The position numbers and the translations under genes were made by a program. Under the pieces are notes generated by a model. The model saw only the letters and a list, made by a program, of their open reading frames with translations, had not been told where the DNA came from and did not search any database. A stretch of 64,000 nt of DNA, taken from Watersipora subatra (taxonomy: Eukaryota > Bryozoa > Gymnolaemata > Cheilostomatida > Watersiporidae). Numbering within the stretch: position 1 is the stretch's first letter; each line of letters starts with the position of its first letter. The DNA is taken from assembly GCF_963576615.1 (NCBI RefSeq), contig NC_088708.1:3100001-3164000 (forward strand), written 5' to 3'. Shown here in pieces: positions 2,421 to 32,401 of this stretch.

Positions 2421-3124
2421 CTGCACTGAATTTGCAAATATATGGCCATTTTCTAAAAACCCAGGATGCTTGCATTGAGCGCGGACACATGATGTCGATT
2501 GATTGGGTGTCCATAGCCCATCAGTACCACAAGCTATATATTTCTCACCATCTAGCATAAAGCCACTGTCGCAAACACACTCAGCTGTGCTGTTGTATGA
2601 AGTGTTTATAACTTGATAGTGGCCATTTTCAATAGAATAAGGATCACCACAGTCAACGGTGAGGCACTCGGGAATTGACTGGTTCCACTCGGCAGATGAC
2701 AGGCAATGAAGAGCGAGGCTGCTAGAGTTAGTTGACGAGATAAAGTAGCCGGGAGAGCACCGCACTTCAACTATACTGTTATAACTGGTTGAGTTGCTGT
2801 CAACCTGGGCGTTGACTACAGAGACACGTGGACAAGAGATTTTGACGCAGAGCAATGTTGGAGGAATGTTCCATATTAGCTGAGAGGTACATGATATATA
2901 GTCTATTTGTTCTGTAAGAAAAAAGCCATCATCGCAAACGGGTCTTAGTTTAGCACCCAAGCTATATGCGGAAGCGCTGAAGGTACCCTCTATTGTTATC
3001 CAAACACCTTTCTGTAAGGAAGGGGGTGGAGAGCAGTTTCTCGCCTTGCAAGTAGAAATCTTGGCAACTTTCCAGGTGCCATCTGCTTGACAGTAGTTGT
3101 TCAAGGAACCCGACAATTCATATC
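2421..3124 (-). CDS. SVEP1-like: exon 69: multi-CCP exon, last in window
   Basis: A 704-bp exon from phase 1 (acceptor CTCTACAG) to phase 0 (CAG|GTGAGT). It ends one CCP, encodes three more (starting R-N-C-S-P-P-P, I-S-C-P-R-V and V-D-C-G-D-P) and starts a fourth at A-Q-C-K-H-P. Many N-x-S/T sequons are present (N-S-T, N-S-S, N-T-S, N-Q-S). The donor shows that the gene goes on to the left of the window or into the repeat region. Confidence 0.9.
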
Positions 3125-6100
3125 CTGTAGAGAAAGCATGTTGTTATATCCACATTCACCTGACTTCAATTTACTTAACAGCCTTGCTAGTAAGTAGTTC
3201 TACAATTATACCAAGACAATTCATAACCTGTAGAGCAAGCATGGTGTTACAGTATATGGTTAGCATGGTGACTGCAATCTCAATATTTATTCTCTCTATA
3301 CCAGATCATTAACAAAGTTGGTAGTGGTTCAATAGTAGCCTAAGATCATGAGTGAGACGTGATTACCAGTTATGGCTCACACGCTATGTATAGCTCTACC
3401 GCATGAGTACCTTAATCAACTAACCTTCATCACATATGTAAGTGATTTGGCTATTGTAGCTGTTGCTGCCAGATATCTGTCCATGAACAATTGGACCCAA
3501 TCGTGGACAAGTTACAGGAATGCAATGTGGCCAAGGTAAAGTCCAGCTTCCATTTGCAGTACAAAATGATTGGTTGCCTCCCTCCAAATTATATCTGAAA
3601 AGTCAAGCCTATTAGTGAGTAAGACTATTAATAAAGTGTTTGTTATTTTTTTCTACTAACTTAATTTACTTCTTAATTAAGTAAAGCAGGTGTATAAGGG
3701 CTGTTTCTCTTGCTTACTTATAAAACAAAAATAAAGCAAATCTCAGTTATGCATTTAGTCAGTAAGAACACTATTGCAGAAACTCGGCAAAAACCCTCTT
3801 ATTGACTGCAACTTGTTTTTGTAGGAGTTATGGGTTATGGCTGAGTAATAAAAGAAAAATAGGGAGCACAACTTCAAAGGAATAGGCAGTCCAAAAATAG
3901 CTCGATTAAAATGACTGATGAATTTAACAGAATTTTTTAGATTTTTTTGAAAAAAAGCAGAGGGTGAGAGAAATGAGCAATTAATGTAGAAGGATTTTTT
4001 CAGAATAAAAGCAAACCATTTGCACATTTGGCTTAGTGAGTTTGATACGAGTATATGATGTATGTAATGTTTGATACGAGTATATGATGTATGTAATGTT
4101 TGATACGAGTATATGATGTATATAATGTTTGATACGAGTATATGATGTATGTAATGTTTGATACGAGTATATGATGTATGTAATGTTTGATACGAGTATA
4201 TGATGTATGTAATGTTTGATACGAGTATATGATGTATGTAATGTTTGATACGAATAAAGAGAACTGCTCACAAATTTGTTAGAGTAGGCCTATTGTATTT
4301 CTCCCATCTTGAAATGCTCTCATGTTTATAAGTTTAAAAGTTTATTAGTTAAATAAAAGATCTTCACCAATAAATTTCAATCTTCTAATATAATAGTTTG
4401 AGAGATTAGAGTTGAGGGAATAGAGAGAAGTATTAGAGTTGAGGAAATAGAGAGAAGTATTAGAGTTGAGGAAATAGAGAGAAATATTAGAGTTGAGGGG
4501 ATAAAGAGAAGTATTGGAGTTGAGGAAATAGAAAGAAGTATTAGAGTTGAGGAAATAGAGAGTATTAGAGTTGAGGGAATAGAGAGAAGTATTAGAGTTG
4601 AGAAAATAGAAAGAAGTATTAGAGTTGAAGGAATAGAGAGAAATATTAGAGTGGAGGAAATAGAGAGTATTAGAGTTGAGGAAATAGAGAGAAGTATTAG
4701 AGTTGAGGGAATAGAGAGAAGTATTAGAGTTGAGGGAATAGAGAGAAATATTAGAGTTGAGGAAATAGAGAGAAGTATTAGAGTTGAGGGAATAGAGAGA
4801 AGTATTAGAGTTGAGGAAATAGAAAGAAGTATTAGAGTTGAGGGAATAGAGAGAAGTATTAGAGTTGAAGGGATAGAGAGAAGTATTGGAGTTGAGGGAA
4901 TAGAGAGAAGTATTAGAGTTGAGGGAATAGAGAGAAGTATTAGAGTTGAGGAAATAGAAAAAAGTATTAGAGTTGAAGGAATAGAGAGAAATATTAGAGT
5001 GGAGGAAATAGAGAGAAGTATTAGAGTTGAGGAAATAGAGAGAAGTATTAGAGTTGAGGGGATAGAGAGAAGTATTAGAGTTGAGGAAATAGAGAGAAGT
5101 ATTAGAGTTGAGGGAATAGAGAGAAGTATTAGAGTTGAGGGAATAGAGAGAAGTATTAGAGTTGAGGAAATAGAGAGAAGTATTAGAGTTGAGGAAATAG
5201 AGAGAAGTATTAGAGTTGAGGGAATAGAGAGAAGTATTAGAGTTGAGGAAATAGAGAGAAGTATTAGAGTTGAGGGAATAGAGAAAAATATTAGAGTTGA
5301 GAAAATAGAGAGAAGTATTAGAGTTGAGGAAATAGAGAGAAGTATTCAAGTTGAGGGAATAGAGAGAAGTATTAGAGTTGAGGGAATAGAGAGAAGTATT
5401 AGAGTTGAGGGAATAGAGAGAAGTATTAGAGTTGAGGGAATAGAGAGAAGTATTAGAGTTGAGGAACTAGAGAGAAGTATTAGAGTTGAGGGAATAGAGA
5501 GAAGTATTAGAGTTGAGGAAATGGAGAGAAGTATTAGAGTTGAGGGAATAGAGACAAGTATTAGAGTTGAGGGAATAGAGACAAGTATTAGAGTTGAGGA
5601 AATAGAGAGAAGTATTAGAGTTGAGGGAATAGAGAGAAGTGTTAGAGTTGAGGGAACAGAGAGAAGTATTAGAGTTGAGGGAATAGAGAGAAGTAGTAAT
5701 GAAGTAATGATCTTTTCTTTTTACAGAAGACGACCTTTATCAAAGTGTTATAGCAATTATAGTTACACAGTTATAGTGAAATTTTTACTAGAGATTAAAG
5801 ATTAAAAAACTACATTAAAGATTGTATGAATAGAATGAAAGCCGATAATAATCACTATAAGAATATAATTGGCTAACTTTTATTGGTCTCAGAAATAATT
5901 CTGCAAAGCATATGAGATTTTTGGTGGCTATAGTTGAAATGTGAATGAAGAAAGTGGAGCCATTAATTGTGAAATAAAATCAAAGAATACTAAAATAAAA
6001 CAAGCTAGATGCGCTTGCATGTAAATCGTAGTTTTAAGTAGGAATGTTCGTAGCTACCAGTCTACTAGTGTGAAATGATGTGTAAAGAAATTAACCCTCA

Positions 6101-9100
6101 TTAGATTGTCTACACCTGAACAGTTGTACGGGAACATAATAATGAATCTACAATTACATGTACCTTATCATAGCCTACCCGGATCCACAGAAAAACTTGA
6201 TAGTAGATTGGTATGATAGACTATCAAATTCCACTCTTCCATTAACAATAGATTCAGGTGTTGAACAGTTGACAGGCTGACATGAAGGAGTGTATTCAGA
6301 CCAATCTCCATATTCATTACATTTCTGCGTAGAAGGTCCAATCAGAGTGTACCTGAGGATATAAAATTAGATTGTCATCGTATTATGGCATGTTAGTTGC
6401 CAATGAGTCTGTTTTGATCAAATTTATTCTAACAATTATTTATTACAAGGGAAATATATTGTGTACATTATAATAAAACTTTTTACATACCCAGGTATAC
6501 AGGAAAACTTTACAGTGGATTGATATGATAGACTATCAAATTCCACTTTTCCATTAACAATAGATTCAGGTGTTGAGCAGTTGACAGGCTGACATGAAGG
6601 AGTGTATTCAGACCAATCTCCATATTCATAACATTTCTGCGTAGACGGTCCAATCAGAGTGTACCTGAGGATATAACATTAGATTGTCATCATATTATGG
6701 CATGTTAGTTGCCAATGAATCTGTTGTGATTAAATTTATTCTAACAATTATTTATTTTAATAGAAATATATTGTGTGCTTTATAATAAAACTCTTTACAT
6801 ACCCAGGTATACAGGAAAACTTTATAGTAGATTGATATGATAGACTATCAAACTCCACTCTTCCATTAACAATAGATTCAGGTGTTGAACAGTTGACAGG
6901 CTGACATGAAGGTGCAGATCCTGACCATTCTCCATTTTCATCACATCTTTGTGTAGAAGGACCAATCAGAGTGTACCTGAGGATATAACATTAAACAGTC
7001 ATCATATTATGGCATATTAGCTGCCAATGAATCTATTTTGATAAAATTTATTTTAATAATTATTTATTACAATAGAAACATATTGTGTGCTTTATAATAA
7101 AACTCTTTACATACCCAGGTATACATGAAAACTTTATAGTAGATTGATATAATAGACTATCAAACTCCACTTTTCCATTAGCAATAGATTCAGGTGTTGA
7201 ACAGTTGACAGGCTGACATGAAGGAATGTATTCAGACCAATCTCCATATTCATTACATTTCTGCGTAGACGGTCCAATCAGAGCGTACCTGAGGATATAA
7301 CATTTGATTGTCATCATATTATGGCATGTTAGTTGCCAATGAATCTTTTTTGATTAATTTCATTCTAACAATTATTTATTACAATAGAAATATAATGTTT
7401 GCTTTATAATAATACTCTTTACATACCCAGGTATACAGGAAAACTTTATAGTAGATTGATATGATATACTATCAAACTCCACTCTGCCATTAGCAATAGA
7501 TTCAGGTGTTGAACAGTTGACAGGCTTACATGAAGGAATGTATTCAGACCAATCTCCATATTCATTACATTTCTGCGTAGACGGTCCAATCAGAGCGTAC
7601 CTGAGGATATAACATTTGGTTGTCATCATATTATGGCATGTTAGTTGCCAATGAATCTTTTTTGATTAATTTCATTCTAACAATTATTTATTACAATAGA
7701 AATATAATGTTTGCTTTATAATAATACTCTTTACATACCCAGGTATACAGGAAAACTTTATAGTAGATTGATATGATATACTATCAAACTCCACTCTGCC
7801 ATTAGCAATAGATTCAGGTGTTGAACAGTTGACAGGCTGACACGAAGGTGTAGACCCTGACCATTCTCCATTTTCATTACATCTTTGTGTAGAAGGACCA
7901 ATCAGAGCGTACCTGAGGATATAACATTAAACAATCATCATATTATGGCATGTTAGCTGCCAATGAATCTATTTTGATAAAATTTATTTTAATAATTATT
8001 TATTACAATAAAAATATATTGTGTGCTTTATAATAAAACTCTTCACATACCCAGGTATACATGAAAACTTTATAGTAGATTGATATGATATACTATCAAA
8101 CTCCACTCTGCCATTAGCAATAGATTCAGGTATTGAACAGTTGACAGGCTGACATGAAGGTGCAGATCCTGACCATTCTCCATTTTCATCACATCTTTGT
8201 GTAGAAGGACCAATCAGAGTGTACCTGAGGATATAACATTAAACAGTCATCATATTATGGCATGTTAGTTGCCAATGAATCTATTTTGATAAAATTTATT
8301 CTAATAATTATTTATTACAAAAGAAATAAATTGTGTGCTTTTTAATAAAACTCTTTACATACCCAGGTATACATGAAAACTTTATAGTAGATTGATATAA
8401 TAGACTATCAAACTCCACTTTTCCATTAGCAATAGATTCAGGTGTTGAACAGTTGACAGGCTGACATGAAGGTGCAGACCCTGACCATTCTCCATTTTCA
8501 TTACATCTCTGTGTAGAAGGTCCGATCAGATAGTACCTGAAGATATAACATTATATTGTCATTATATTATAAGCTATTAATTTCTTATGATTACGTTATG
8601 GAAAAATTTACAATAGCAATTATTTATCAGAGTAAAAGATAGATTGTGCGCTTTTTAATATAGTCCTCTACGTACCCAGGTATACAGGAAAACTTTACAG
8701 TGGATTGATATGATAGACTATCAAATTCCACTCTGCCATTAACAATAGATTCAGGTGTTGAGCAGTTGACAGGCTGACATGAAGGAGTGTATTCAGACCA
8801 ATCTCCATATTCACTACATTTCTGCGTAGACGGTCCAATCAGAGCGTACCTGAGGATATAACATTTGATTGTCATCATATTATGGCATGTTAGTTGCCGA
8901 TGAATCTGTTTTGATTAATTTCATTCCAACAATTATTTATTACAATAGAAAAATAATGTGTGCTTTATAATAAAACTCTTTTCATACCCAGGTATACATG
9001 AAAACTTTATAGTAGATTGATATAATAGACTATCAAACTCCACTTTTCCATTAGCAATAGATTCAGGTGTTGAACAGTTGACAGGCTGACATGAAGGTGC

Positions 9101-12100
9101 AGATTCTGACCATTCTCCATTTTCATTACATCTCTGTGTAGAAGGTCCGATCAGATAGTACCTGAAGATATAACATTATATTGTGATTATATTATAAGCT
9201 ATTAATTGCTTATGATTACGTTATGGAAAAATTTACAATAGCAATTATTTATCAGAGTAAAAGATAGATTGTGCGCTTTTTAATATAGTCCTCTACGTAC
9301 CCAGGTATACAGGAAAACTTTATAGTAGATTGATATGATATACTATCAAACTCCACTCTTCCATTAGCAATAGATTCAGGTGTTGAACAGTTGACAGGCT
9401 GACATGAAGGTGCAGATCCTGACCATTCTCCATTTTCATCACATCTCTGTGTAGAATGACCAATCAGAGCGTACCTGAGGATATAACATTTGATTGTCAT
9501 CATATTATGGCATGTTAGCTGCCAATGAATCTATTTTGATAAAATTTATTCTAACAATTATTTATTACAATAGAAACATATTGTGTGCTTTATAATAAAA
9601 CTCTTTACATACCCAGGTATACAGGAAATCTTTATAGTAGATTGATATAATAGACTATCAAACTCCACTTTTCCATTAGCAATAGATTCAGGTGTTGAAC
9701 AGTTGACAGGCTGACACAAAGGTGCAGATCCTGACCATTCTCCATTTTTATTACATCTCTGTGTGGAAGGTCCAATCAGAGTGTACCTGAGGATATAACA
9801 TTAAACAGTCATCATATTATGGCATGTTAGCTGCCAATGAATCTATTTTGATAAAATTTATTCTAACAATTATTTATTACAATAGAAACATATTGTGTGC
9901 TTTATAATAAAACTCTTTACATACCCAGGTATACAGGAAATCTTTATAGTAGATTGATATGATATACTATCAAACTCCACTCTTCCATTAACAATAGATT
10001 CAGGTGTTGAACAGTTGACAGGCTGACACAAAGGTGCAGATCCTGACCATTCTCCATTTTCATTACATCTCTGTGTGGAAGGTCCGATAAGATAGTACCT
10101 GAAGATATAACATTATATTGTCATTATATTATAAGCTGTTAATTGCTTATGATTACGTTATGGAAAAGTTTACAATAGCAATTATTTATCAGAGTAAAAG
10201 ATATATTGTGCGCTTTTTAATATAGTCCTCTACGTACCCAGATATACAGGAAAACTTTACAGTGGATTGATATGATAGACTAACAAATTCCACTTTTCCA
10301 TTAACAATAGATTCAGGTGTTGAGCAGTTGACAGGCTGACATGAAGGAGTGTATTCAGACCAATCTCCATATTCATTACATTTCTGCGTAGACGGTCCAA
10401 TCAGAGCGTACCTGAGGATATAACATTTGATTGTCATCATATTATGGCATGCTAGTTGCCAATGAATCTGTTTTGATTAATTTCATTCTAACAATTATTT
10501 ATTACAATAGAAATATAATGTGTGCTTTATAATAAAACTCTTTACATACCCAGGTATACAGGAAATCTTTATAGTAGATTGATATGATAGACTATCAAAT
10601 TCCACTCTTCCATTAACAATAGATTCAGGTGTTGAACAGTTGACAGGCTGACATGAAGGTGCAGATCCTGACCATTCTCCATTTTCATCACATCTCTGTG
10701 TAGAAGGTCCAATCAGAGTGTACCTGAGGATATAACATTAAATAGTCATCATATTATACCATGTTAGCTGCCAATGAATCTATTTTGATAAAATTTATTT
10801 TAATAATTATTTATTACAATAAAAATATATTGTGTGCTTTATAATAAAACTCTTTACATACCCAGGTATACAGGAAAACTTTATAGTAGATTGATATGAC
10901 AGACTATCAAACTCCACTCTTCCATTAGCAATAGATTCAGGTGTTGAACAGTTGACAGGCTGACATGAAGGTGCAGATCTTGACCATTCTCCACTATCTT
11001 TACACCTCTGCGTAGAAGGACCAATCAGAGTGTACCTGAGGATATAACATTAAACAGTCATCATATTATGGCATGTTAGCTGCCAATGAATCTATTTTGA
11101 TAAAATTTATTTTAATAATTATTTATTACAATAAAAATATATTGTGTGCTTTATAATAAAACTCTTTACATACCCAGGTATACAGGAAAACTTTATAGTA
11201 GATTGATATGACAGACTATCAAACTCCACTTTTCCATTAGCAATAGATTCAGGTGTTGAACAGTTGACAGGCTGACACAAAGGTGCAGATCCTGACCATT
11301 CTCCATTTTCATTACATCTCTGTGTAGAAGGTCCGATCAGATAGTACCTGAAGATATAACATTATATTGTCATTATATTATAAGCTATTAATTGCTTATG
11401 ATTACGTTATGGAAAAATTTACAATAGCAATTATTTATCAGAGTAAAAGATAGATTGTGCGCTTTTTAATATAGTCCTCTATGTACCCAGGTATACAGGA
11501 AAACTTTACAGTGGATTGATATGATAGACTATCAAACTCCACTCTTCCATTAGCAATAGATTCAGGTGTTGAACAGTTGACAGGCTGACATGAAGGTGCA
11601 GATCCTGACCATTCTCCATTTTCATCACATCTTTGTGTAGAAGGATCAATCAGAGTGTACCTGAGGATATAACATTAAACAGTCATCATATTATGGCATG
11701 TTAGCTGCCAATGAATCTATTTTGATAAAATTTATTCTAACAATTATTTATTACAATAGAAACATATTGTGTGCTTTATAATAAAACTCTTTACATACCC
11801 AGGTATACAGGAAAACTTTATAGTAGATTGATATGATATACTATCAAACTCCACTCTTCCATTAGCAATAGATTCAGGTGTTGAACAGTTGACAGGCTGA
11901 CACAAAGGTGCAGATCCTGACCATTCTCCATTTTCATTACATCTCTGTGTAGAAGGTCCGATCAGATAGTACCTGAAGATATAACATTATATTGTCATTA
12001 TATTATAAGCTATTAATTGCTTATGATTATGTTATGGAAAAATTTACAATAGCAATTATTTATCAGAGTAAAAGATAGATTGTGCGCTTTTTAATATAGT

Positions 12101-15100
12101 CCTCTATGTACCCAGGTATACAGGAAAAATTTTACAGTGGATTGATATGATAGACTATCAAATTCCACTTTTCCATTAACAATAGATTCAGGTGTTGAGC
12201 AGTTGACAGGCTGACATGAAGGAGTGTATTCAGACCAATCTCCATATTTATTACATTTCTGCGTAGACGGTCCAATCAGAGCGTACCTTAGGATATAACA
12301 TTTGATTGTCATCATATTATGGCATGTTAGTTGTCAATGAATCTGTTTTGATTAATTTCATTCTAACAATTATTTATTACAATAGAAATATAATGTGTGC
12401 TTTATAATAAAACTCTTTACATACCCAGGTGTACATGAAAACTTTATAGTAGATTGATATGATAGACTATCAAATTCCACTCTTCCATTAACAATAGATT
12501 CAGGTGTTGAACAGTTGACAGGCTGACATGAAGGTGCAGATCCTGACCATTCTCCATTTTCATCACATCTCTGTGTAGAAGGACCAATCAGAGTGTACCT
12601 GAGGATATAACATTAAACAGTCATCATATTATGGCATGTTAGTTGCCAATGAATCTATTTTGATAAAATTTATTTTAATAATTATTTATTACAATAAAAA
12701 TATATTGTGTGCTTTATAATAAAACTCTTTACATACCCAGGTATACAGGAAAACTTTATAGTAGATTGATATAATAGACTATCAAACTCCACTTTTCCAT
12801 TAGCAATAGATTCAGGTGTTGAACAGTTGACAGGCTGACATGAAGGTGCAGATTCTGACCATTCTCCATTTTCATCACATCTCTGTGTAGACGGTCCAAT
12901 CAGAGTGTACCTGAGGATATAACATTAGATTGTCATCATATTATGGCATGTTAGCTGCCAATGAATCTATTTTGATAAAATTTATTCTAACAATTATTTA
13001 TTACAATAGAAACATATTGTGTGCTTTATAATAAAACTCTTTACATACCCAGGTATACATGAAAACTTTATAGTAGATTGATATAATAGACTATCAAACT
13101 CCACTCTTCCATTAACAATAGATTCAGGTGTTGAACAGTTGACAGGCTGACATGAAGGTGCAGATCCTGACCATTCTCCATTTTCATCACATCTCTGTGT
13201 AGAAGGACCAATCAGAGTGTACCTGAGGATATAACATTAAACAGTCATCATATTATGGCATGTTAGTTGCCAATGAATCTATTTTGATAAAATTTATTCT
13301 AATAATTATTTATTACAAAAGAAATAAAATTGTGTGCTTTATAATAAAACTCTTTACATACCCAGGTATACAGGAAAACTTTATAGTAGATTGATATAAT
13401 AGACTATCAAACTCCACTTTTCCATTAGCAATAGATTCAGGTGTTGAACAGTTGACAGGCTGACATGAAGGTGCAGATTCTGACCATTCTCCATTTTCAT
13501 TACATCTCTGTGTAGAAGGTCCGATCAGATAGTACCTGAAGATATAACATTATATTGTCATTATATTATAAGCTATTAATTTCTTATGATTACGTTATGG
13601 AAAAATTTACAATAGCAATTATTTATCAGAGTAAAAGATATATTGTGCGCTTTTTAATATAGTCCTCTACGTACCCAGATATACAGGAAAACTTTACAGT
13701 AGATTGATATGATAGACTAACAAATTCCACTTTTCCATTAACAATAGATTCAGGTGTTGAGCAGTTGACAGGCTGACACGAAGGAGTGTATTCAGACCAA
13801 TCTCCATATTCATTACATTTCTGCGTAGACGGTCCAATCAGAGCGTACCTGAGGATATAACATTTGATTGTCATCATATTATGGCATGTTAGTTGCCAAT
13901 GAATCTGTTTTGATTAATTTCATTCTAACAATTATTTATTACAATAGAAATATAATGTGTGCTTTATAATAAAACTCTTTACATACCCAGGTATACAGGA
14001 AAACTTTATAGTAGATTGATATGATAGACTATCAAATTCCACTCTTCCATTAACAATAGATTCAGGTGTTGAACAGTTGACAGGCTGACATGAAGGTGCA
14101 GATCCTGACCATTCTCCATTTTCATTACATCTCTGTGTAGAAGGGCCAATCAGAGTGTACCTGAGGATATAACATTAAACAGTCATCATATTATGGCATG
14201 TTAGCTGCCAATGAATCTATTTTGATAAAATTTTGTTCTAACAATTATTTATTACAAGAGAAATGTATTGTGTGCTTTATAATAAAACTCTTTACACACC
14301 CAGGTATACAGGAAAACTTTATAGTAGATTGATATAATAGACTATCAAATTCCACTCGGCCATTAACAATAGATTCAGGTGTTGAACAGTTGATAGGCTG
14401 ACATGAAGGTGCAGATCCTGACCATTCTACATTTTCGTTGCATCTCTGTGTAGAAAGTCCAATCAGATAGTACCTGAAGAAGTACCATCATATCACAGAT
14501 CGGTATATTAATGGTATGTGGCGTGTTAGTTGCTCATGACTATAATTTGACACCAATTGTTTAATAACTATTTATTGTGGTAAAAGCTGCATTGTGTGTT
14601 TTTAATATAATTCTTTATTCACTCAGGTATACAGAAACACTTTATAGTAGATTGGTAAGATAGACTATCAAATTTCAATCTTCCATTGACAATAGATTCA
14701 GGTGTTGAACAGTTGACAGGCTGACATGAAGGAGCATATCTTGACCATTCTCCATTCTCATTACATCCATTTGTAGAAGGTCCAATCAGATACCTTAGGA
14801 CACTTATATTTTACTAGTATTCAGCTTCGTGAGTAGTATACAGAGTAAATTTTTGGAGCAACTTAATTTCGCAGCTCTGATGAGTGCGAAAATATAGTGA
14901 TGTGAAAATAAATGCAGCGGAACAAACATAATTAGATTGCTCAGGTTCAGTTCACCGATAAAAAAAAGTTTCAATTTGCGACTAGTTTGTAATTGTGAAC
15001 CGCAGGTAGAATGGTGTGAGCAAGGTCAATAATGCAATTTGATCGCTTGCTGCTATTTGTTTCTTGGACTATCAACAGACCCGTATTCTCTGGGGCGGCT

Positions 15101-18100
15101 GGCCGGCTGAGCCGCCCCAACTTTTCGGGAATTTTTCACGGCTAAGTACAGTTCAACTCAGATAACTCGCCCTCGGATAAAATGTAACATTTCATCTCAA
15201 ATACAAGGTTAACTCGAGTGGACTTGTTTTGGTCAGTTCCAACGCAATGATAAATTGCTTCAGATAACTCAACCTCAACATCATTTATTCAAAAAGTTAT
15301 TTGCCCAACGGCCATAGACACAGTTTTTGTCGCTGTAGAATATCACTTCATTCCAAGCCATAGAGACAAACATCAACTTTAAGTACTTTTTAGGCGTCAT
15401 TATTATCATCATCATCAGCGGCAAAATATTTTTGTTAACGACTTTTATAAAGGTTTGCAAAAGATCAAGTTTTACCAAACACCCGCTTGGCCATGTCCCT
15501 TCGAAAGCGTAAAAACCTCCAAATGAACTTAAAATAAAATCCGTAAAATTGATCTTTGTTAAAACGCTTAAAAGAAAAGTATGTCTTTTTTCTGAGCGTT
15601 TTAACTGTGGTCAATTTTTGCCTATTTTAATTTAAAAACGTCTTGTCAGTCACATCACCTAAAACAAAACAAATCTCAAAAAATAGAAAAATGTTGGTAC
15701 TTTCCGATAAAATTTTTTAAAACTTCACACGAGAGGCCCGGTTGAGGCCCTACATGAGAGATTCCTGTTGGTGGCTTACACCGCCCCCCTTCACACCCTA
15801 GGTGTTCATAACATTAGCCACCCCAACTTGCAACCAGGGAATACAGGCCTGACTATTAATGAACAAAACTATTTAATTTCGCGTTTTTGCTCGTTTGTTA
15901 TGATAGTTTAGTTTCGCACATGAAATTTTCGTGAGAGGATGACTCCGCGAAAACGCGAAAGTTAGATGAGGCAAATACATAAGTGTCCTAGGGTAATTAC
16001 CTGAGGATATAACGTTATATTGTCATTATATTATAGAGTATTAATCGCTCATAATTATGTTATAGAAAAATTTACAATAACAATTGTTTATTATGGTAAA
16101 AGATGCATTGTGTGTTTGGTAATATAGTCCTCTACGTACCCAGGAATACAGGAAAAGTTTATAATAGATTGATATAATAGACTATCAAATTTCACTCTTC
16201 CATTGACAATAGATTGAGGTGTTGAACAGTTGACAGGCTGACATGAAGGTGCAGATTCTGACCATTCTCCATTTTCTTTGCATCTCTGTGTAGAAGGTCC
16301 GATCAAATAGTACCTGAGGATATAACGTTATATTGCCATTATATTATAGGGTATTAATTGCTCATGATTATATTATGGAAAAATTTACAATAACAATTAT
16401 TTATCAGAGTAAAAGATAGATCATGTGCTTTTTAATATAGTCCTCTACGTACCCAGGTATACAGGAAAACTTTACAGTGGATTGATATGATAGACTATCA
16501 AATTCCACTTTTCCATTAGCAATAGATTCAGGTGTTGAACAGTTGACAGGCTGACATGAAGGTGCAGCTTCTGACCATTCTCCATTTTCATCACATCTCT
16601 GTGTAGAAGGACCAATCAGAGTGTACCTGAGGATATAACATTAAACAGTCATCATATTATGGCATGTTAGTTGCCAATGAATCTATTTTGATAAAATTTA
16701 TTTTAATAATTATTTATTACAATAAAAATATATTGTGTGCTTTATAATAAAACTCTTTACATACCCAGGTATACATGAAAACTTTATAGTAGATTGATAT
16801 AATAGACTATCAAACTCCACTCTTCCATTGACAATAGATTCAGGTGTTGAACAGTTGACAGGCTGACATGAAGGTGCAGATCCTGACCATTCTCCATTTT
16901 CATCACATCTTTGTGTAGAATGACCAATCAGAGTGTACCTGAGGATATAACATTAAACAGTCATCATATTATGGCATGTTAGCTGCCAATGAATCTATTT
17001 TGATAAAATTTATTTTAATAATTATTTATTACAATAAAAGTATATTGTGTGCTTTATAATAAAATTCTTTATTTACCCAGGTATACAGGAAAACTTTATG
17101 GTAGATTGATATAATAGACTATCAAATTCCACTCTGCCATTGACAATGGATTTAGGCGTTGAACAGTTGACAGGCTGACATGAAGGTGCAGATCCTGACC
17201 ATTCTCCATTTTCATCACATCTTTGTGTAGAAGGTCCGATCAAATAGTACCTTAATATGTAGAATCATATTACATTTTTGTATGGTCGATATGTGGTGTG
17301 TTGGTTAACCATGATTATATTTTGGTAATATTTATTTCAATGGTTATTTAATCTGATAAAAGATACTTTGGGTGCTTTATAATAAAATTATTTATTTACC
17401 CAGGTATACAGAAAAACTTAATAGTAGATCGATATGATAGACTATCAAATTGCACTCTTCCATTAACAATAGATTCAGGTGTTGAACAGTTGACAGGCTG
17501 ACATGAAGGAGTGTATTCAGACCATTCTCCATCGCCATTACATCTCTGTGTAGAAGGTCCGATCAGAGTGTACCTGAGGATAAAACATTACACTGTCATT
17601 GTATTATGGCATGTTAGTTTCCCATGAATACATTTAAAAAAATGTATTTTATTGACTATTTATCATGATAAAAATAGATTGTGTGTTTTTAATATAATTC
17701 TATATTTACCCAAGTATACAGGAAAACTTAATAGTAGATCGATATGATAAACTATCAAACTCCACTCTGCCATTGACATTAGATTCGGGTGTTGAGCAGT
17801 AGACAAGCTGACATGAAGGGGTGTATCCTGACCATTCTCCATTTTCATTGCATCTCTGTGTAGAAGGACCTACCAGTTTGTACCTATTTTAATAATTAAT
17901 AATTTTGGCTATTTTCCCAGCAATGCTGTAACAGATATTAAATAATTTTTATAGATATGTGATATGAAAGATAAATAATTAAATTATATATATATATATA
18001 TATCATTTGTGTTTCTGTAACAATAGTATGTTTATAGGGCTATAATTCAGTATATGTTCATGTATTTAACAAATGTCTATCACAGACCCACATATCTAAT

Positions 18101-21100
18101 AGGAACTTGTGCACCTGATCAGTTTAGATATCTATGCATTCAATACAAATCTATGCATCATATTTAAGTCTTTTTAACAAAGTTTGTGTCTGTAATAAAA
18201 CTTTGTCTTTTACACAGCCCAAATCTAAAAATCTGACACAAATTTTTGTATTCCACAAGCATTTGTAAACTCAACACAAACTTCAAAATTCTTATAACCA
18301 CACCCACACACATTTACACCCACATGCACACACACACGCACGCACGCGCACAAACGCGCACACTTGCACACACCCACCCACACCCATCCACACACACCCA
18401 CCCACACACACGTATCTACCTACATTTTGTGCATATATTGTTAGTTTGTTATACATAACAAGCCCAAGTGTGAAGTTGTGTTTTCTTGTAATCCCTACAG
18501 AGCCTTTTTAAAACTATGATTTCATGCTCATCAATGTATAATTCTTTTTAACAGTCTGTAAACATCTAGTACGATCAAGTTTTAGCAAATATACATGCAC
18601 ATAGCTTTCTTTGTATAATTGTAATATTTTGACGCTTCAATGGTGTATCAAAATTTCTAATAGCAAAATCAGGTAACTCCCTCAAACTTTTTAAATTTAT
18701 TCTTTCTATTTGACTCGACAGTCACCTACATTTTATTGCTGAAGGAGGTTGTCTGAGTCAATTAGGAAAGTAAAACTTTTGATTTTGAAATACATGTCAT
18801 CATTTAAGAGAACTAGCGCACTGCTTGTAAATATTTATGACCACATTTTACATTATCATAATTTCTAAACTTACCCAGTTTGGCAGCTGTATATGCTACT
18901 GGAGAGATAATATAGACCTGTATAGCTAACTAAACCATAATCGATTTCCTCAGGCTCTTTGCAAAATATGGGATAGCAGCTTGGCACAGGATGACTCCAG
19001 CTAGAGTTCTCCAAGCATCGAGACTGATTTGCTCCAATTAGCTGAAATCCTTTTGAACACGAAAAATTTGTGACATCATGTAGAAATGAGCTTGATTTCT
19101 TTGCTATTTGCAAATTGTTATCCACAGATTTTAGATTTGGACAAATGATAATATGACAAGTTGGAGTCGCTTTTGACCAGCTGCCATTTTTGAGACACCT
19201 GGTCAGGCTTGTCCCATTCAATCTGTAGCCATGTTTGCAGCTGTAGTGAACCACAGAGCCATACAATGTACCATTAGCTATCAATGCTACCATATGCTCA
19301 TCCACCATCGGAGAACCACAATCTATTAGCAAGCAGTTAATTTCACCGCATTTAAAGTGATGACTGCTGTTTTGACATGTCCAATAACCTTCCTCTCCAC
19401 AGAACAATTCTGTGTTGTCTGCATGATAGCCCGTCTCACAGATAATAGATGCCACCGAACCATAAACATTGCTACTCATATTGACTTGACCGTGGTTTAT
19501 GGCAGTACTCGGCGTATCACATTCTGTTTGCTGACAAACTGGTGGTGCAGAGCTCCATGATCCATTAGTGGCGCAATACACAGTCGACTCTCCAAGCAGT
19601 CTAAAGCCAGTCATGCAAGAAAAGGTTGCCCTTGAGCCATATTTTAGCCCTTCACTTTTTATTTTGCCATGTTCTGGAACAACTAGCTCGGAGCAGTTTA
19701 AAATTTGGCATACTGGAGGTGGATAACTCCAGGTCACATTTGAAATGCATGTCACATTAGCGGCTCCAACAAGCTTATATCCTATGTCACAAGAATATAC
19801 AGCAAGAGCATCATACTCGACACCAGAATATATAACATGACCATTTTCTATAGCGCTTGGCACGTTGCATGTAATCTGTTTACACACAGGTATCTCTGAG
19901 CTCCACATACCATCAGCAAGACATTCAGAAACATTAGAGCCTGATATATAGTAGCCTGTGCTACAGTAATAGTGCTGAACATTTCCATAGCTTGAGCTGT
20001 TGCTAGAGACGTAACCTGCAAGTAATAAGGTAATAATAAACTATAGAGATAACAATACTCTAGTTCAACAAACAAGTTGTAAGTGGAAGGCCAAAGGTTG
20101 CAAAGGTCAAAGGTTGCATGTACCCAAAACACCAGTTTTGTGTAACAACATAAAAATAAAATGCAAAAACTGGAAAGGTAGTTGAGCCGTCATTCACCAT
20201 GTGATGACAAAATATATATGTTAGCATCGGGCAATCTGCACTAACCATTGGCAATGGTGAATCGTGGTGAACACTGCAGCTTTGTACAGGATTCTAGGTT
20301 AGATGGGAACCAAGTACCATTTTGAATGCACCGTGCTTGTTGGTAGATTTTGCTGATGTTAAGCAACACATAGCCTGGGTGACACGTGTAGTTTGCTGTA
20401 CTGCCATATGTTTTTTCTAACGCTAAAATGCCAGGAAAACCAATATAATAATAATAATGAACTTAGAAATTGAATGTTAATTCAACATTAATTCAACATT
20501 AATGCCATAAAAAACAGTCAAATAAATTAGAAATTTATTAAAAGTAGAGTAAGGTGCAAAATAATTTGTCAAGGAGCTAAAAAATCAAGCGAAAACACGC
20601 ATAATGAATTTATTGAAGAGAGGTTGAGAAGACAAATCCAAAGGTTACATGTTGTAAGGCTTTTTATAAAAAAATGTAAGTCCTGCTTAAATAGTTATAC
20701 TTACCATTTATGTGAGCATTCGGTATGAGTGGAGGCTGGCCACAGCTGACCATGGAACAAGAGAACTCACTCTCAGTCCACTCACCATTGCCTTCACAGC
20801 GTATGCTGCCTTCACCAGACATAATGAAGCCTAAAAAATGATCACATAATTTCTAATGACTTTTTATTGTTGCATCTCTTGGCTAGAGTGCAGATAACTA
20901 CAGGTAGTGAGCATCTAATTTGAGTTCAAACCTATCAACATTTAGGAAGAAAACTGAGCTAATGGCGAAGTCTTGGATTAGGTAAACTTCTTCTAGAGGT
21001 CAATTGAATATTATGAGAGGTTGATTTGTTAGGTGTTAGAATAACATGAAAAATAGGTATATAATTGATAAAAAAGAGTAAAGGTATGGTGAGGTTGAAA

Positions 21101-24100
21101 AATTCCATTTGGCTGAAACGTGTCTGCTTCATTGAACACTTTTAAGACTGCAAAAATAATTATGTTCTTGTTATGTTTTTGTTACGTTCTCGTTATGTTC
21201 TTGTTATGTTTTTGTTATGTTCTTGTTATGTTTTTGATATGTTCTTGTTATGTTTTTGATATGTTCTTGTTATGTTCTTGTTATGTTTTTGATATGTTCT
21301 TGTTATGTTTTTGATATGTTCTTGTTATGTTTTTGTTGTTTTTGATATGTTCTTGTTATGTTTTTGATATGTTCTTGTTATGTTTTTGATATGTTCTTGT
21401 TATGTTTTTGCTATGTTCTTGTTATGTTCTTGTTATGTTTTTGTTATGTTCTTGTTATGTTCTTGTTATGTTTTTGTTATATCCTTGATATGCTCTTGTT
21501 ATGTTCTTGTGATACAATTATCCTCAAAGCAAGCTGAAGATAGCTGCTGAAAACAATGAAACAATCTTATGGTTAAAATTGTTAACTTACTTTCATGTGT
21601 CATTAATCACTTGTAGAGGAGGTTTCATTGGAGTCACCTTGCCTGGCATTGTGCAGGAAAGGTTATTGAAATGTGTCATAAGAAAGGAATGAAGCATATT
21701 CTTTCACTGAATGGCACAGCATCATATATACATAGAGTGATCTCGTCATTACTCTATGCTAGTACTGTACTACCAGCATCATGTCTAGTGATGTTTATAT
21801 CTATGCTACTGTTATTAGTAATTTGGAAGATATACCAGAAACAATCGCCTGTCCTTTAAATCTCTGCTACTATTTTGCCACAAGCATCTTCATTGGCTAA
21901 TTTTGGACCAAACATTTAATATGGCTGGAATCCTGGAAACTTGGGAAACCTTCTTCCTAGAAAATTAGCCGTTACTACTGTCAGTCATTTGTTTTCTGAA
22001 ACCCCTTTAAAAGAATTAGTAGGCATACACCGCAATGTAAAAAATACATACCTTCATCACAGAAGTATGTAGCTTGGCCTTTGTAGAAGACTGATGAAAT
22101 ATTCACAGTCGAGTTTACAATATCAGGAGGTCTCGGGCATTTGACTATATGACAAAGAGGAAATGCGCTGCTCCAGAGACCAGTTTTCAAGCATAACAAA
22201 TGCCGTTCTCCTGTAATTCAGTGTGTTTAAACATAAACCGCTGTAAAGGCATGGGAATTTCTATGAGATGGCAAAATGTAAGAGGCCTAGAATATAACTT
22301 CATACATACCTTTATGAAGTCCTAGTGGAATTTTTCATACTTTATAAAAATGAAACGGGTGTCCAGTTAGTGCATGTTTTAAATTTTGGCCATGAAACAA
22401 AATATCAATTAGGTTACATGTATCAGGTTACATCTATCAGGTTACATCTATTAGGTTATACCTATTAGGTTACATCTATCAGGTTACATCTATTGGGTTA
22501 GTCTATTGCATCATGACTAACCCGATAGATGCAATGTCATGTAACCATATACAGTTAGTCTGATCTTAGCCAAAATAGGAGCCACTATAGTAATAGAGAA
22601 AGATGATAAGAAAGGTGGACGAGAGGACGGTGAGAGAGAGAAGACAACAACAAAAAAGAATAAAAGTAGCATACAGAGAAAAAGAGAGCCACATCAGAAT
22701 TGTGATGCCTACCTATAACTTCATAGCCTGTGTCACATGAGAAATTGGCCTTAGTTCCATAGACTAATTGATCATTACTATAGTTGGCAGACCTGAATTG
22801 CACACTTGATGGAAGATCACAAACTACAGGATCACACCTCGGAATGGAATCATTCCATAGTCCACTTGCAGTACAGCGAAGAAAAGAGGCTCCTCGAAGT
22901 TCATGGCCTGTAATAAGATATGTCATTTAATCTCCCAAAATAAGTTATATCATCATAACACAGCTACATTGTAGATGAATAGCCAACTTAGATGTACACA
23001 TAGGCTGCATTTGTTTAATTACTTACCACTAGTGCCTATTATGCAACCTTTGTTTAGAGGCTGCCTTATATGGTACTGTTAGATACTCCTGACTGAAGCA
23101 ACTAATACATTGAGTTGATAAATATACACTCTACATATTCCACAACAAAAATTAATTAATAATAAACATATTACTGTGAACAAGTTTGAAGAGATAGTTA
23201 AAGTATCAAAGTGTTGGTAGTTATTTCATTAAAACACACAAAATATTCATAGCTCACTTCGCTAGACATAAAAGCTATAAGCTGTTATATTTTAATTATG
23301 TATATTGACTAATGTCTGTCTAGAAAGTATATGAACATACACTCTTGACTCGCCTAAAGATATCTAGTACTTCCTCTTTGTCTAAAATTTTACCGACATA
23401 TCTGTGAGGTTGGCAGGAGAAAGGAATAAGCCTGCACCTCTTCTGAGATGTTTGCCTGTAGCAGCCTAATGCAATGCTTCCCAAAAGTAAACTCAATGTA
23501 GCCGACAGACACAAGCAACCAACTTGATATGACCTTCTTATGCATAGCAACACACAAACAGCTTAGACGAAAAGGTGCTCTGAATGAGAAGAATCTTGAC
23601 TAAACTGGTAACCGTAGTTTATCTTGGACTGCTGAGTGTATCAGTATGTGCGAGCTCCAGTTTTCAACTGCTAGACTGCTGCATGATTAGAGTTTTATAC
23701 TAGCTAAAGCAAGACGAGGAAGGATACTGCAGACATCCATAAGTTTTCAGCCTGATAACAAGCAGAAGACAACCTAATATAACATAAAAGAGTGAGAGAG
23801 GCATATCCTCAGCCTCAAGGAAAACTACTTGCCTACTCGTTGAAAAACAAAGATGCCACTTTGTCTGAATCTCTCTCTGCCTATAATTGGAGTACATCTC
23901 TGTACTACTGAGAGAGGAATTCTGGTAATGCAAAAGTTGGAGTTTTTCAAACCATTTTGCATGTAGTTTTATGGAAATGGCTTAGATAAGTACTTTATAT
24001 CAGCTGAAACATCACCCACCCCTAGGGGGAACATCATCAGGCTTAAAAAAGTTTAAGCTGGGATGCTCTGGAACCCAGTAAAAAGTAATTTAGGAGCAAG

Positions 24101-27100
24101 ATCACCTTAAAAATTGCAGAATAAAATTCGAAAACACTTCTAGACAGAGAATGCTCAAATCAACCTGAGCAACAAACTGCGCTGGCAGCAACAGAACTAG
24201 ACGATTATGAGAGTTATGAAAGAACTAAGAGTTATGTTGCTGCTCTATGTGTGGTATGAGACCAATATTGCTGCTCTATGTGTGGTATGAGACCAATATT
24301 GCTGCTCTATGTGAGGTATGAGACCAATATTGCTGCTCTATGTGAGGTATGAGACCAATATTGCTGCTCTATGTGTGGTATGAGACCAATGCTGCTGCTC
24401 TATGAGAGGTATGAGACCAATGCTGCTGCTCTATATGAGGTATAAGACCAATATTGCTGCTCTATGTGAGGTATGAGACCAATATTGCTGCTCTATGTGT
24501 GGTATGAGACCAATATTGCTGCTCTATGTGTGGTATGAGACCAATGCTGCTGCTCTATGTGAGGTATGAGACCAATGCTGCTGCTCTATGTGTGGTATGA
24601 GACCAATGCTGCTGCTCTATGTGTGGTATGAGACCAATGCTGCTGCTCTATGAGAGGTATGAGACCAATGCTGCTGCTCTATGTGAGGTATGAGACCAAT
24701 ATTGCTGCTCTATGTGAGGTATGAGACCAATATTGCTGCTCTATGTGAGGTATGAGACCAATGCTGCTGCTCTATGTGTGGTATGAGACCAATGCTGCTG
24801 CTCTATGAGAGGTATGAGACCAATGCTGCTGCTCTATGTGAGGTATGAGACCAATATTGCTGCTCTATGTGAGGTATGAGACCAATATTGCTGCTCTATG
24901 TGAGGTATGAGACTAATGCTGATGCTCTATGTGAGGTATGAGACCAATGCTGCTGCTCTATGTGAGGTATGAGACCAATGCTGCTGCTCTATGTCAGGTA
25001 TGAGACCAATGCTGATGCTCTATGTCAGGTATGAGACCAATTTCGCTGCTCTATGTGAGGTATGAGACCAATGCTGCTGCTCTATGTGAGGTATGAGACC
25101 AATGCTGATGCTCTATGTCAGGTATGAGACCAATGCTGATGCTCTATGTTAGGTATGAGACCAATGCTGATGCTCTATGTGAGGTATGAGACCAATGCTG
25201 ATGCTCTATGTGAGGTATGAGACCAATGCTGCTGCTCTGTGTGAGGTATGAGACCAATGCTGCTGCTCTATGTCAGGTATGAGACCAATGCTGCTGCTCT
25301 GTGTGAGGTATGAGACCAATGCTGCTGCTCTATGTGAGGTATGAGACCAATGCTGTTGCTCTATGTGAGGTATGAGACCAATGTTGCTGCTCTATGTCAG
25401 GTATGAGACCAATGCTGCTGCTCTATGTGAGGCCTGCCTAGTGCTTTTAGAAAGCTTAGCGGACAGCAGCTACACATTCTTTAGGAGTTGCGAAGGTTTC
25501 GTGAATGAAGCGAGGATGGAATTGACTTTGCCATCAGAAATGACATAGCTTGGCATAGCGAGCAGTAGGATATGACTCAATGTCAATCGTTCTACATGTC
25601 AACCATAAGTACCTTTGCGTCTACTATGATAAATTCTGAACAAATCAAAGAGAGCTTCTACAACTAGTTGAGATACGTGATGAAAACCATTTCTAGTACA
25701 GATAAGTTGGTCATTGCAAGTGACTTTAATGCCCAAGTTGGATGTGATCACAAGAGTTGGCAAAGAAAGATTGGATATCGAAGAGTAGGAGAGCTTAACT
25801 TCAAAGGTGATTTTTACTCACATTCTGCTCAGAGCACAATCTTATCATCATTGGAACTATCTTCAAACACGGAGATCATTATAAAACACCATAGATGCAT
25901 TCATAGATGCATTCAAGGTTTAGGCATTTACTTGACTATGTACTAGCAAAACAGGTGAGCTGAAGAGATGTTTTGGAGGGCAGTTCTTAGGGCTTTACAG
26001 ACAATAACATGGTTCGTTCAGCAATCTTAACCATAGTCTAACAAAATTATGAAAAAACCAGACAAAAAAACTAAAGAAACTAAGTGTTGCTGAACAGAAA
26101 AACTATAAAACTCCAAAAAAAGAGTTTAAGGAGAAGATAAATAAAAAGGTATATGAAAATGAGGTAAGAAAGCGAATTGATGAGGAGACTTTAAAGAGTT
26201 GGACATTTGATACAGCGTATGAGCTGTAAGGAAAACTTTCCAGGACTCGCCAATATTATTGTACAGAGGATCGTGGGACGCAGAACCCACTGCTTGAAAA
26301 GAGAGAAATATTGCAAGAAGTGCTAAGAGAAAAAACAAGAATATTACAAGTCTGCTGCTGATTGCTTCGATATGAAAAAAGTTTACCAGAGTCTTAAAAA
26401 AACATTTAGCTCCCTGAAGCGAGGAACATTTCAGGTATCAACAATTAAAAAAGAGACATTCCTGCTGAACAAGAACCAGATTCTGGAGCAATTTGTTGAG
26501 TACTTCAAGGCCTCCTGCACATCCTAGCAGAACTGAGCATTTATACCCTTTAAGTAGGGGCTAGTTATGGGCTGCCTGGATAAACTACTTAATAAAACTG
26601 AATTCCCTGCTGCACTCAACATGACAAAAAAAAACAAAGTAAGCTTTTAGCAAAATAGAAATATGGCGGTCAGAAGCTATAAGAGATACCATGTAAACTG
26701 ATTAGGAACATATTGAAAAAAAAATGTGACAGGATTAGACAGGTACCATCATCACACTTATATTTTAAAAAAGGTGATCTTAAAGAATGAAAACTTTGAG
26801 GTGGAACTCTAATATCTATTACTGGAGAGATCATGTCTAGTATACTACTCTACATGGTCGGTAATGTGGTATCCCTATATGTAATGCCTGAGCTAGAGTG
26901 AGATTTTTGTGAGGGGTGTGCTACAATAGATATAGTGTTCAGCCTTCATCAGTTATGGGACAATGTCTAGAATGTCCAAAAGTTTGATAGTATCAACAAA
27001 AGATAAACCTCGTGAAATCTTTACATAACAGAATGCATACTCCAGTAGTTCAGGCAAATTAGACTTCGAATAGATTTGCAGTGACAGTGCTCTGTCTCGC

Positions 27101-30100
27101 TATCGTTTGATGTCGTGCTGGAGATCGCTTTTAAAGATATCAATGAAAGCCTACATCCATACAATACACAATGTTCACTTTTTTAATTGTCTGACCACAG
27201 AGCTAAATCCTGTAGAACTAAATTTTTTGTCAGAGAAATGTTGGCCAAGAATGCCGGTACTCTGACTGGCCCCTCAGCTAAAGACTGATTATACACTGGA
27301 GACTCCTCAACTGCTTATAGACTGTTTTGACAGAGCAGGCAGCATTACAATGCACAGTAAAGATAAATATAAAACCTCCCCATCTATCCTCAGAACCTAC
27401 AGTCATTCTTATAGCTAACAAGCAACTTTTTCACTGTACAGATTTCAGATACCTGGGTAGTACTGTATCTAGCAGTGCTAAGATTGATAAACATGGAAAG
27501 ACAAGTGCTTCTATTGGAAGCTGCAAAATCTTCTGCAAAAAACTCAGCATGTTTCCATTCAATAAGTATGTAATGTCTAGTGAGCTATTGTCTTGACAAC
27601 CCTTGCTGTATGGTGCTGTGAACTGGACATGTACTCCACTCAAATGAAGTGACTCCATACTTTCATGAGAAGGCAACTCCGCAGCATCATAAATCTCACT
27701 TGGAAAGATATGGTCAAGGACACGGAAATCTTAAGATGAGTAAGGATCTGATCTATGACTGATATTCAAATAGAGAAAGGTCTAAGACGGTTAGGACATG
27801 AGCACAAGGTTGATCATAATATTGAGACAGCTACTATCTTCGCAGCTTTGCAATGACAACAGGAACCAAAGTAGACCCAGACTGCAACACAATAGCGCAG
27901 CGAACAACTTGTAAAAGGTAGATCTAGATACATAGCATGAATCTACTGAGAACAAAATTGTATAGAAGTTAGCAACAAAACCAAACCACAAGACAATCAT
28001 TGATAAAACAACTGACTCCAAAAGAATGAGAGAGTTTTTAGATGCAGCTGTACACTGCACATGACTGACTGAACTTACAAATAATGATAACTTTAGTTCA
28101 TTTCTCATTCTATTTACACATTTTATTCATAGAATTCTGAGTTGTGGATTGCTAAGAACAAATCTCCAAATGGAACGGAACCATCCTCCAGTCTAGCTAA
28201 CTGACTTAAACTTAGACTAAGTATCTGTATGGTCAGACTAGGTGCTGATCATACGTGTTTAAGCCTAAATTCGTAAAAAATTTCCCATGCATATTATAAA
28301 GATTTGTTAATCCAGCTAACCTAGTTGGCACGAGACGTTAGCCACATCTCCATATTCGTGGGCTCCGAGTGCTTGAGAACTAGAGACTATGATGCTGTGT
28401 GGGATGGTGAGCATTGGACACAGCTTTTTGATGCAGATGAAGTCTACATCAAGCCAGTCATTACCAAGACAGACTAAAGTTGAGTTACCAGTTGCAGACC
28501 AACCAAGTGAGCAAGTGTATTCAGCTACTAGTATACCGGTGTTCTGAAAAGGAGATACCAGAGATTCAAGGAAATGGAACACTAGTAGTAAAATTGACTA
28601 GCGTATAAGTTGGTGTATCTACTAGTATATGAACTACTAACATGCTAGTGTATCTACTAGTATATGAACTAGTAACATGCTAGTGTATCTACTAGTATAT
28701 GAACTAGTAACATGCTAGTGTATCTACTAGTATACGAACTAGTAACATGCTAGTGTATCTACTAGTATACGAACTAGTAACATGCTAAGGTATCTACCAG
28801 TATATGAACTAGTAACATGCTAGTGTATATACTAGTATATGAACTAGTAATATGCTAGTGTATCTACCAGTATATGAACTAGTAACATGCTAGTGTATCT
28901 ACTAGTATATGAACTAGTAATATGCTAGTGTATCTACCAGTATATGAACTAGTAACATGCTAGTGTATCTACTAGTATATGAACTAGTAACATGCTAAGG
29001 TATCTACCAGTATATGAACTAGTGACATGCTAGTGTATATACTAGTATATGAACTAGTAATATGCTAGTGTATCTCCTAGTATATGAACTAGTAACATGC
29101 TAGTGTATCTACTAGTATATGAACTGGTAACATGCTAGTGTATCTACTAGTATACGAACTAGTAACATGCTAGTGTATCTACTAGTATATGAACTAATAA
29201 CATGCTAGAGTATTAAGCTGCCTAATAAAGAAAATGATGATGAAACACAATAAATACACTGATGCTAATAAGTTAGTTACTATATTGTTATTGCATATAC
29301 TTTTGTTACTTTGTTATTTTTCATGCTTGAGTTGGAAATCATGAATTAGTCTTGAACTATTAACAAATCAATACCTGATGTTTCAATCGAGTGAGAACGA
29401 CTCCTAATAACTAATATCTATGCTAGAGCAAATAATGTGGGGCAGTAAGTCAGTTTATGCTCTGCTCTATGAATCAGCATGCACAAACTGGTCTTGCGTA
29501 ATTGTTGACTAAAACTACCTTATCTTCTAAAACTAGAAGTTAGTGTTGCTTTGAATATTAACTAATCTTCTATTTTAGACTGGTGAGTTAGACTATTGTC
29601 TTCACAGCATATAAAGCATCTCAGTGGATAAACCACATGAGTACATGATCATAACTAGTTCACACTTAGTAAGTCAAATCTATTGAGCTCTATTCGATTG
29701 TATCAGCCTGTCTGTATGTGTCCACTTATCCTACTATATTTAGTATCTGCAAACATTTCACACAAGCAAGATAACATGAGTAAGTTACAAAACAAATTTG
29801 TTTCAACTAGCTTTTTTGTTTTTAGAGTCAGCATATGTCTGATTATTATTGTCATTGACAATGGAGACCAGTTTATAATACAAAAGTGACTGTGAAGAGA
29901 CTTACATTGCTCGTGGTAACTGTGGCACCATGAATTCTAGGAGGGTTCTTTTTGCACTGGCTGATCTTTTCACAAAGAGGAATAGATGTGTGCCAGATGC
30001 CAGTTCCGGTACAAATCAGCTCACTTGTTCCCACAAGCAAGTACCTACAGAGAGATGTCAAACCCATGACCACCTTCAACAAAGATATGATGAGATGGAA

Positions 30101-32348: not shown

Positions 32349-32401
<53 letters not shown>

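Follow-up and report, generated by a model that had tools for sequence, protein, structure and literature searches.

What becomes of a gene in which one small exon stands 34 times in tandem, and does its protein carry all those copies? The question is posed by a SVEP1-like gene of the bryozoan Watersipora subatra, encoded on the minus strand of a stretch of 64,000 nucleotides (contig NC_088708.1 of assembly GCF_963576615.1, positions 3,100,001 to 3,164,000), which is the window analysed here and whose own numbering is used; features are on the minus strand unless stated. The array occupies positions 6179-17883, with array exon 1 (17710-17883) at the high end and array exon 34 (6179-6352) at the low end. 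A sequence-only reading had placed 34 exons there at a spacing of about 312 bp, all but one keeping the frame and together adding about 1,970 residues, and this description was borne out. A tblastn search with one unit recovers all 34 exons and finds outside the array only diverged sushi matches, and an AG acceptor and a GT donor border each of the 34. The spacing is 310-323 bp in 32 of the 33 steps, the remaining one, from exon 6 to exon 7, measuring 1,520 bp and containing an insertion of 1.2 kb. Thirty-two exons are 174 bp long, exon 7 has 171 bp and exon 15 has 175 bp, the last being the only one of the 34 that does not keep the frame; summed, they give 5,914 bp or 1,971 codons. Intron length is 138 bp in 20 of 33, 139 bp in nine, 149 bp in two, 136 bp in one and 1,346 bp in the one with the insertion, and Tandem Repeats Finder, with a threshold of 50, scores 12,350 for 6187-14790 and 2,215 for 15998-17885. 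Between and around the two odd exons lie an upstream sub-array of exons 1-6 (16140-17883), exons 8-14 (12425-14473) and exons 16-34 (6179-11972), the latter every one open and 174 bp long. As judged from the genomic sequence, it is likely that an exon of this gene was spread by unequal crossing-over and conversion, and that the product would be a long stalk of near-identical sushi domains.

The repeated unit comprises one 174 bp exon and an intron of about 138 bp, the exon being of phase 2-2 and divisible by three in length. It starts at the Tyr of one Gly-Tyr pair and stops at the Gly of the next pair, carrying Cys 3 and 4 of one sushi domain and Cys 1 and 2 of the following one. Hence the 34 exons are sushi exons, as had been read, but each is half of one domain joined to half of the next and not a domain on its own. 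Some domains in the sushi genes of the complement system are cut at the same Gly, also in phase 2. Since phase and length are safe and both ends are cut at the same Gly-Tyr, the gain or loss of a copy means the gain or loss of exactly one whole sushi domain; in-frame units each adding one domain, as in coding tandem repeats of the LPA type, are thus found in 33 of the 34 exons. Three joined units match Pfam Sushi with an E-value of 2.8e-32, and two and a half joined units, compared with the PDB, find CR1 as best match, the best solved relatives being complement receptors 1 and 2. The earlier proposal that one frame-safe exon was amplified within a single SVEP1-like gene, as whole exon-plus-intron units, is supported, although the "almost identical" copies are to be understood as about 90% identical in DNA and 85% in protein (over 32 exons).

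The array copies evolve as constrained coding sequence, and they do so on either side of exon 15. Over 32 exons, with exons 7 and 15 left out, the ratio of nonsynonymous to synonymous divergence (dN/dS, omega) is 0.35 (dN 0.074, dS 0.209; bootstrap over codons 0.21-0.60, 0 of 2000 replicates reaching 1). The value is 0.32 for the 13 exons upstream of exon 15 (0 of 2000 bootstraps at 1 or above), 0.37 for the 19 exons downstream (3 of 2000) and 0.38 for the 25 exons of the core 8-33 (5 of 2000). None of the 32 exons has lost any of the four Cys, the Trp or the Tyr, and 31 of them retain the Asn of the Asn-Cys-Ser sequon. With exon 15 as the sole exon omitted, the spliced reading from 20015 to 2421 runs through 2,584 residues uninterrupted by a stop. 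Stop codons are present in 0 of 33 copies, against a mean of 18 copies in a neutral simulation in which none of 2000 runs was stop-free; the simulation overstates the contrast, since it treats the copies as independent and its intron-like divergence includes the split between two intron classes. That the introns are as similar as the exons, as had been proposed, did not hold. The mean pairwise difference is 0.182 for introns (32 of 33, the insertion-bearing one left out) versus 0.098 for the 34 exons, and this excess of intron divergence points to coding constraint; the dS of the exons, about 0.21, is close to the intron divergence. The same figures qualify the claim of a recent amplification, which agrees with the closest full units, about 4 differences apart per 312 bases, but less so with a silent divergence that averages about 0.2 over all copies. 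Selection or neutral expansion had been left as alternatives; constraint acts on the protein sequence of the copies, while the data are silent on selection for copy number. The constraint argues against skipping of the whole array.

Two copies, however constrained the others are, look broken. Array exon 15 (12112-12286) is frameshifted, its surplus base located within a T run; its acceptor is CTAAG, most copies having CTCAG or TTCAG, and when it is included a stop is reached in exon 16. The copy may be a relic that splicing skips, or the assembly may be wrong at one base. Array exon 7 (14623-14793) carries an extra Cys and has as its acceptor an AG with which the insertion of about 1.2 kb (14790-16000) ends; the insertion is placed at the acceptor of this exon and bounded by short terminal inverted repeats with 16 of 17 bases paired. 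This AG lies three bases further in and would preserve the frame; were the older acceptor used, which lies upstream of the insertion, translation would stop at once. The only reading frame of the insertion scanned against Pfam, 15284-15610, has no match. Since constraint downstream of exon 15 resembles that upstream, the gene, if it has died at all, probably did so not long ago.

The manner in which the array grew can be followed in the distribution of differences among its units. The units are mosaics produced by recombination within them: the core of 26 units (8-33) offers 71 informative sites, and among pairs of sites lying close together 17% have all four combinations versus 44.5% after permuting the sites, with 0 of 500 permutations giving a value as low. 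The nearest neighbours of a unit by intron and by exon often differ, and the exon-intron correlation of distances is weak (r 0.25-0.38, with no significance computed), that of the two intron halves being 0.94. Copying in blocks is also seen, units 14-16 differing from units 20-22 at 7, 9 and 4 positions, and three further two-unit matches exist. The distance to the nearest unit is 49, 61 and 62 differences for units 1, 2 and 7 and at most 28 for 29 other units, in a list that has neither unit 6 nor unit 34. The pattern fits unequal crossing-over together with conversion, without proving them. On this view a frame-safe exon of 174 bp, together with its intron of about 138 bp, would have spread in a repeat-rich region as unequal crossing-over raised the number of units to 34 and gene conversion shuffled sequence among them. 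Most array exons would be joined in one transcript, with exons 15 and 7 skipped or decaying, or with exon 15 bearing an assembly base error, and the protein would string together about 32-34 near-identical sushi domains, placed between its pentaxin/EGF portion and its C-terminal portion. The product is most likely kept as such a long stalk, which would provide reach and repeated weak binding.

Several observations weigh against this interpretation. With exon 15 frameshifted and exon 7 behind an insertion at its acceptor, the product cannot hold every copy as sequenced. Unequal crossing-over predicts diverged edges, but a clearly diverged edge is found upstream only, and exons 10, 15, 21, 26, 30, 31 and 33, which form a second sequence class, are as far from the exon consensus as the edges. 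A regular higher-order repeat was considered and rejected, its shift periodicity being equalled in 197 of 2000 permutations. A Pfam match to von Willebrand A is missing both from one hand-joined reading of about 61.6-63.4 kb, whose exon joins are uncertain, and from segment 61357-61749. Finally, the evidence is the genomic sequence of one assembly.

The alternative that survives best is that the array is a pure by-product, arisen in a region prone to tandem duplication from an exon that was frame-safe by chance, its length having no role. Twenty-three further arrays, mostly of short units and merged by hand from the finder rows, make up 13.4 kb or 21% of the window (22.8% when all finder rows outside the exon array are counted), and they indicate that the region readily duplicates in tandem; none of them overlaps the 26 checked exon segments outside the exon array. 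Against it stands the constraint on the copies, which shows that the protein is of consequence, even if its length perhaps is not. This alternative concerns copy number and not coding function, hence it overlaps the best explanation, and we regard it as a serious possibility that nevertheless falls short of even chances.

In a second alternative, cells or individuals would splice varying subsets of the exons, or a single one, so that the array would be a store of variants in the manner of Dscam and not a fixed stalk. The array exons are near-equal in length and equal in phase, residue variation is greatest at a handful of positions, among them 2, 12, 14, 19-21, 36, 39 and 46, and skipping would tolerate two broken exons inside an otherwise constrained gene. 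However, 174 is divisible by three and the frame therefore enforces no use of one exon at a time, and codons 10-23, where positive selection was considered and discarded, likewise have an omega under 1 (0.48). In a simple exact-match test for RNA docking sites, complementarity stayed within the shuffled range. The longest exact complementarity of introns to the upstream flanking intron has a mean of 10.5 bases versus 9.6 after shuffling, at a shared place in 29 of 32 introns, but related introns are expected to share that place; the downstream mean, 9.5, is under the shuffled 10.4, and the longest matches, 11 bases upstream and 13 downstream, do not exceed shuffled maxima of 12 and 14 (10 shuffles each). 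Exon choice of this kind is unlikely. A further proposal, that copy number varies among individuals and, with varying exon subsets, gives individual-specific sushi chains serving for example self-recognition or microbe binding, is speculative and improbable. An assembly artefact, with copies collapsed or falsely expanded, is very unlikely, though some copies may have been collapsed: although the surplus base of exon 15 sits in a T run, a usual site of long-read error, and two pairs of introns are identical (4 and 13, 16 and 22), no two of the 34 exons are identical in DNA, which makes a falsely expanded assembly less likely, even the closest full units differ, as given above, and the 1.2 kb insertion is unique within the window. 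On this evidence the array is real, large, constrained and in frame, a sizeable new example of an event already known in kind and not a new mechanism.

The host gene is SVEP1-like by its domains. From high to low coordinates Pfam gives sushi, two HYR, ephrin-receptor-like, EGF, pentaxin, diverged sushi, the array and again sushi, an order that presumably fits that of SVEP1. What is probably the first coding exon, bearing a likely signal peptide, was read by eye at 63097-63375 and has no Pfam match; the region 61357-63375 resembles, also by eye, a von Willebrand A domain lacking the metal site. Sushi exons ahead of HYR span 57661-59068 (57661-57987 and 58844-59068 pass the Pfam cut-off, 58472-58753 is below it), followed by two HYR exons (56911-57249 and 56089-56367, within 56089-57249), three ephrin-receptor-like exons above the cut-off (48263-49577) and EGF exons (45416-47159). 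A fourth ephrin-receptor-like candidate at 59818-60087 is under the cut-off, and segments 52969-53181, 60514-60720 and 61357-61749 have no match in Pfam. The pentaxin lies in three pieces between 37031 and 44873 (within 44640-44873, 42819-43064 and 37031-37282), with an E-value of 3e-21 on the hand-joined pieces; singly, only 37031-37282 reaches the curated cut-off. Between pentaxin and array, diverged sushi exons extend over 20244-32756, where 6 of 8 scanned segments pass the cut-off, 30607-30891 is just under it and 29876-30121 is without a match. The exon upstream of the array (18875-20015) joins array exon 1 in phase 2 and has six Sushi stretches by Pfam; it is intronless, whereas the array has one intron per domain. 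Two sushi exons follow the array, at 3425-3594 and 2421-3124, and the 3' end of the gene runs beyond window position 1.

Protein searches agree with this assignment and gave distant matches throughout. With the hand-joined protein, scored against only the 7,988 candidates sharing most words, SVEP1 proteins are among the best; the 120 listed of 542 matches, at 23-46% identity over part of the query, are SVEP1-like proteins of vertebrates, molluscs, echinoderms, arthropods and anthozoans, and EGF-rich proteins too. All 26 matches listed for the upstream exon 18875-20015 are at 23-38% identity. A reading frame of 95 residues with one array exon found no candidate with three shared words in the protein search, and one unit compared with viral and prokaryote contigs gave 12 and 182 pattern matches, respectively, none confirmed as a relative.

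Many minisatellites lie outside the exons, for example at 38253-40314 (82 copies of 25 bp), 24234-25432 and 4405-5695. A possible remnant of a reverse-transcriptase element is on the plus strand at 34028-35359, where zf-RVT matches in 34859-35359 with an E-value of 7e-5, under the curated cut-off, and 34028-34855 has no match; after it comes a two-copy duplication of 313 bp at 35331-35955. Scans for curated noncoding RNAs and for tRNAs reported none in the window.

If the array is in the transcript, no other sushi run of such identity among 146 fetched proteins would come near it in length; this sample is skewed by the way the proteins were searched for and by gene models in which such arrays may be dropped. 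Fourteen of these proteins have a tandem run of at least 2 copies at 60% identity or more with a period of 50-75, though some of these runs are not sushi; measured likewise, and without exons 7 and 15, the array comes to 32 copies at 86% offset identity. Against the 34 copies here, 7.0 tandem sushi copies are found in P0033 and 4.6 in P0032, both named SVEP1-like, 4.8 in P0043 of Batillaria, SVEP1-like by domains, and 3.7 in the E-selectin-like P0006 of Sycon. They share with the array tandem units of 58-59 residues, at 66-83% offset identity, but their sequences differ from it and the runs probably arose independently. P0056, named SVEP1-like, also has a very long sushi run with a period of about 58 residues, 2,108 of its 4,075 residues being in stretches with at least 60% offset identity; the run is longer but more diverged, its longest strict part having 4.2 copies at 64%, and the domain set is another, with an F5/8-type domain (PF00754). 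In the mussel Potamilus, P0030 (4,666 residues) has about 48 copies of a 53-residue unit at 68% offset identity and Pfam ephrin-receptor-like domains, a comparable case of growth in a different extracellular domain. Taken with the shorter runs of other SVEP1-like proteins, the array suggests that the sushi block of this family expands repeatedly. It would offer a natural test of how far a modular extracellular protein can be lengthened one exon at a time, of how broken copies are tolerated and of whether repeat-rich genomes convert tandem duplication into variation of protein length.

In comparison with SVEP1 itself, the gene shares HYR, ephrin-receptor-like, EGF, pentaxin and a long sushi block; human SVEP1 has 34 sushi domains, the figure of the sequence-only reading. 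It differs in lacking a Pfam von Willebrand A match and in the 34 near-identical sushi exons added. No such SVEP1 array is described in the titles and abstract openings of the open-access papers that the literature searches listed. Mutually exclusive clusters of the Dscam type resemble the array in their tandem exons of equal length and phase; here the frame does not prevent joint use, 33 of 34 lengths being divisible by three, and no docking site is above chance in the simple exact-match test, although some mutually exclusive clusters do not rely on frame. The nearest known systems are coding repeats of the LPA and DMBT1 types. The SRCR repeats of DMBT1 and the long homologous repeats of CR1 are likewise extracellular domains repeated within one protein, and their copy number varies; CR1 duplicates blocks of seven domains, the unit here being a single domain. 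In LPA, kringle IV type 2 forms an in-frame coding array inside one secreted protein, as here, with 1-40 units per allele according to PMC11462820. Its unit, however, is of 5.6 kb versus 312 bp with one exon in the bryozoan gene, and variation in copy number is known there, whereas the present array is known from one assembly.

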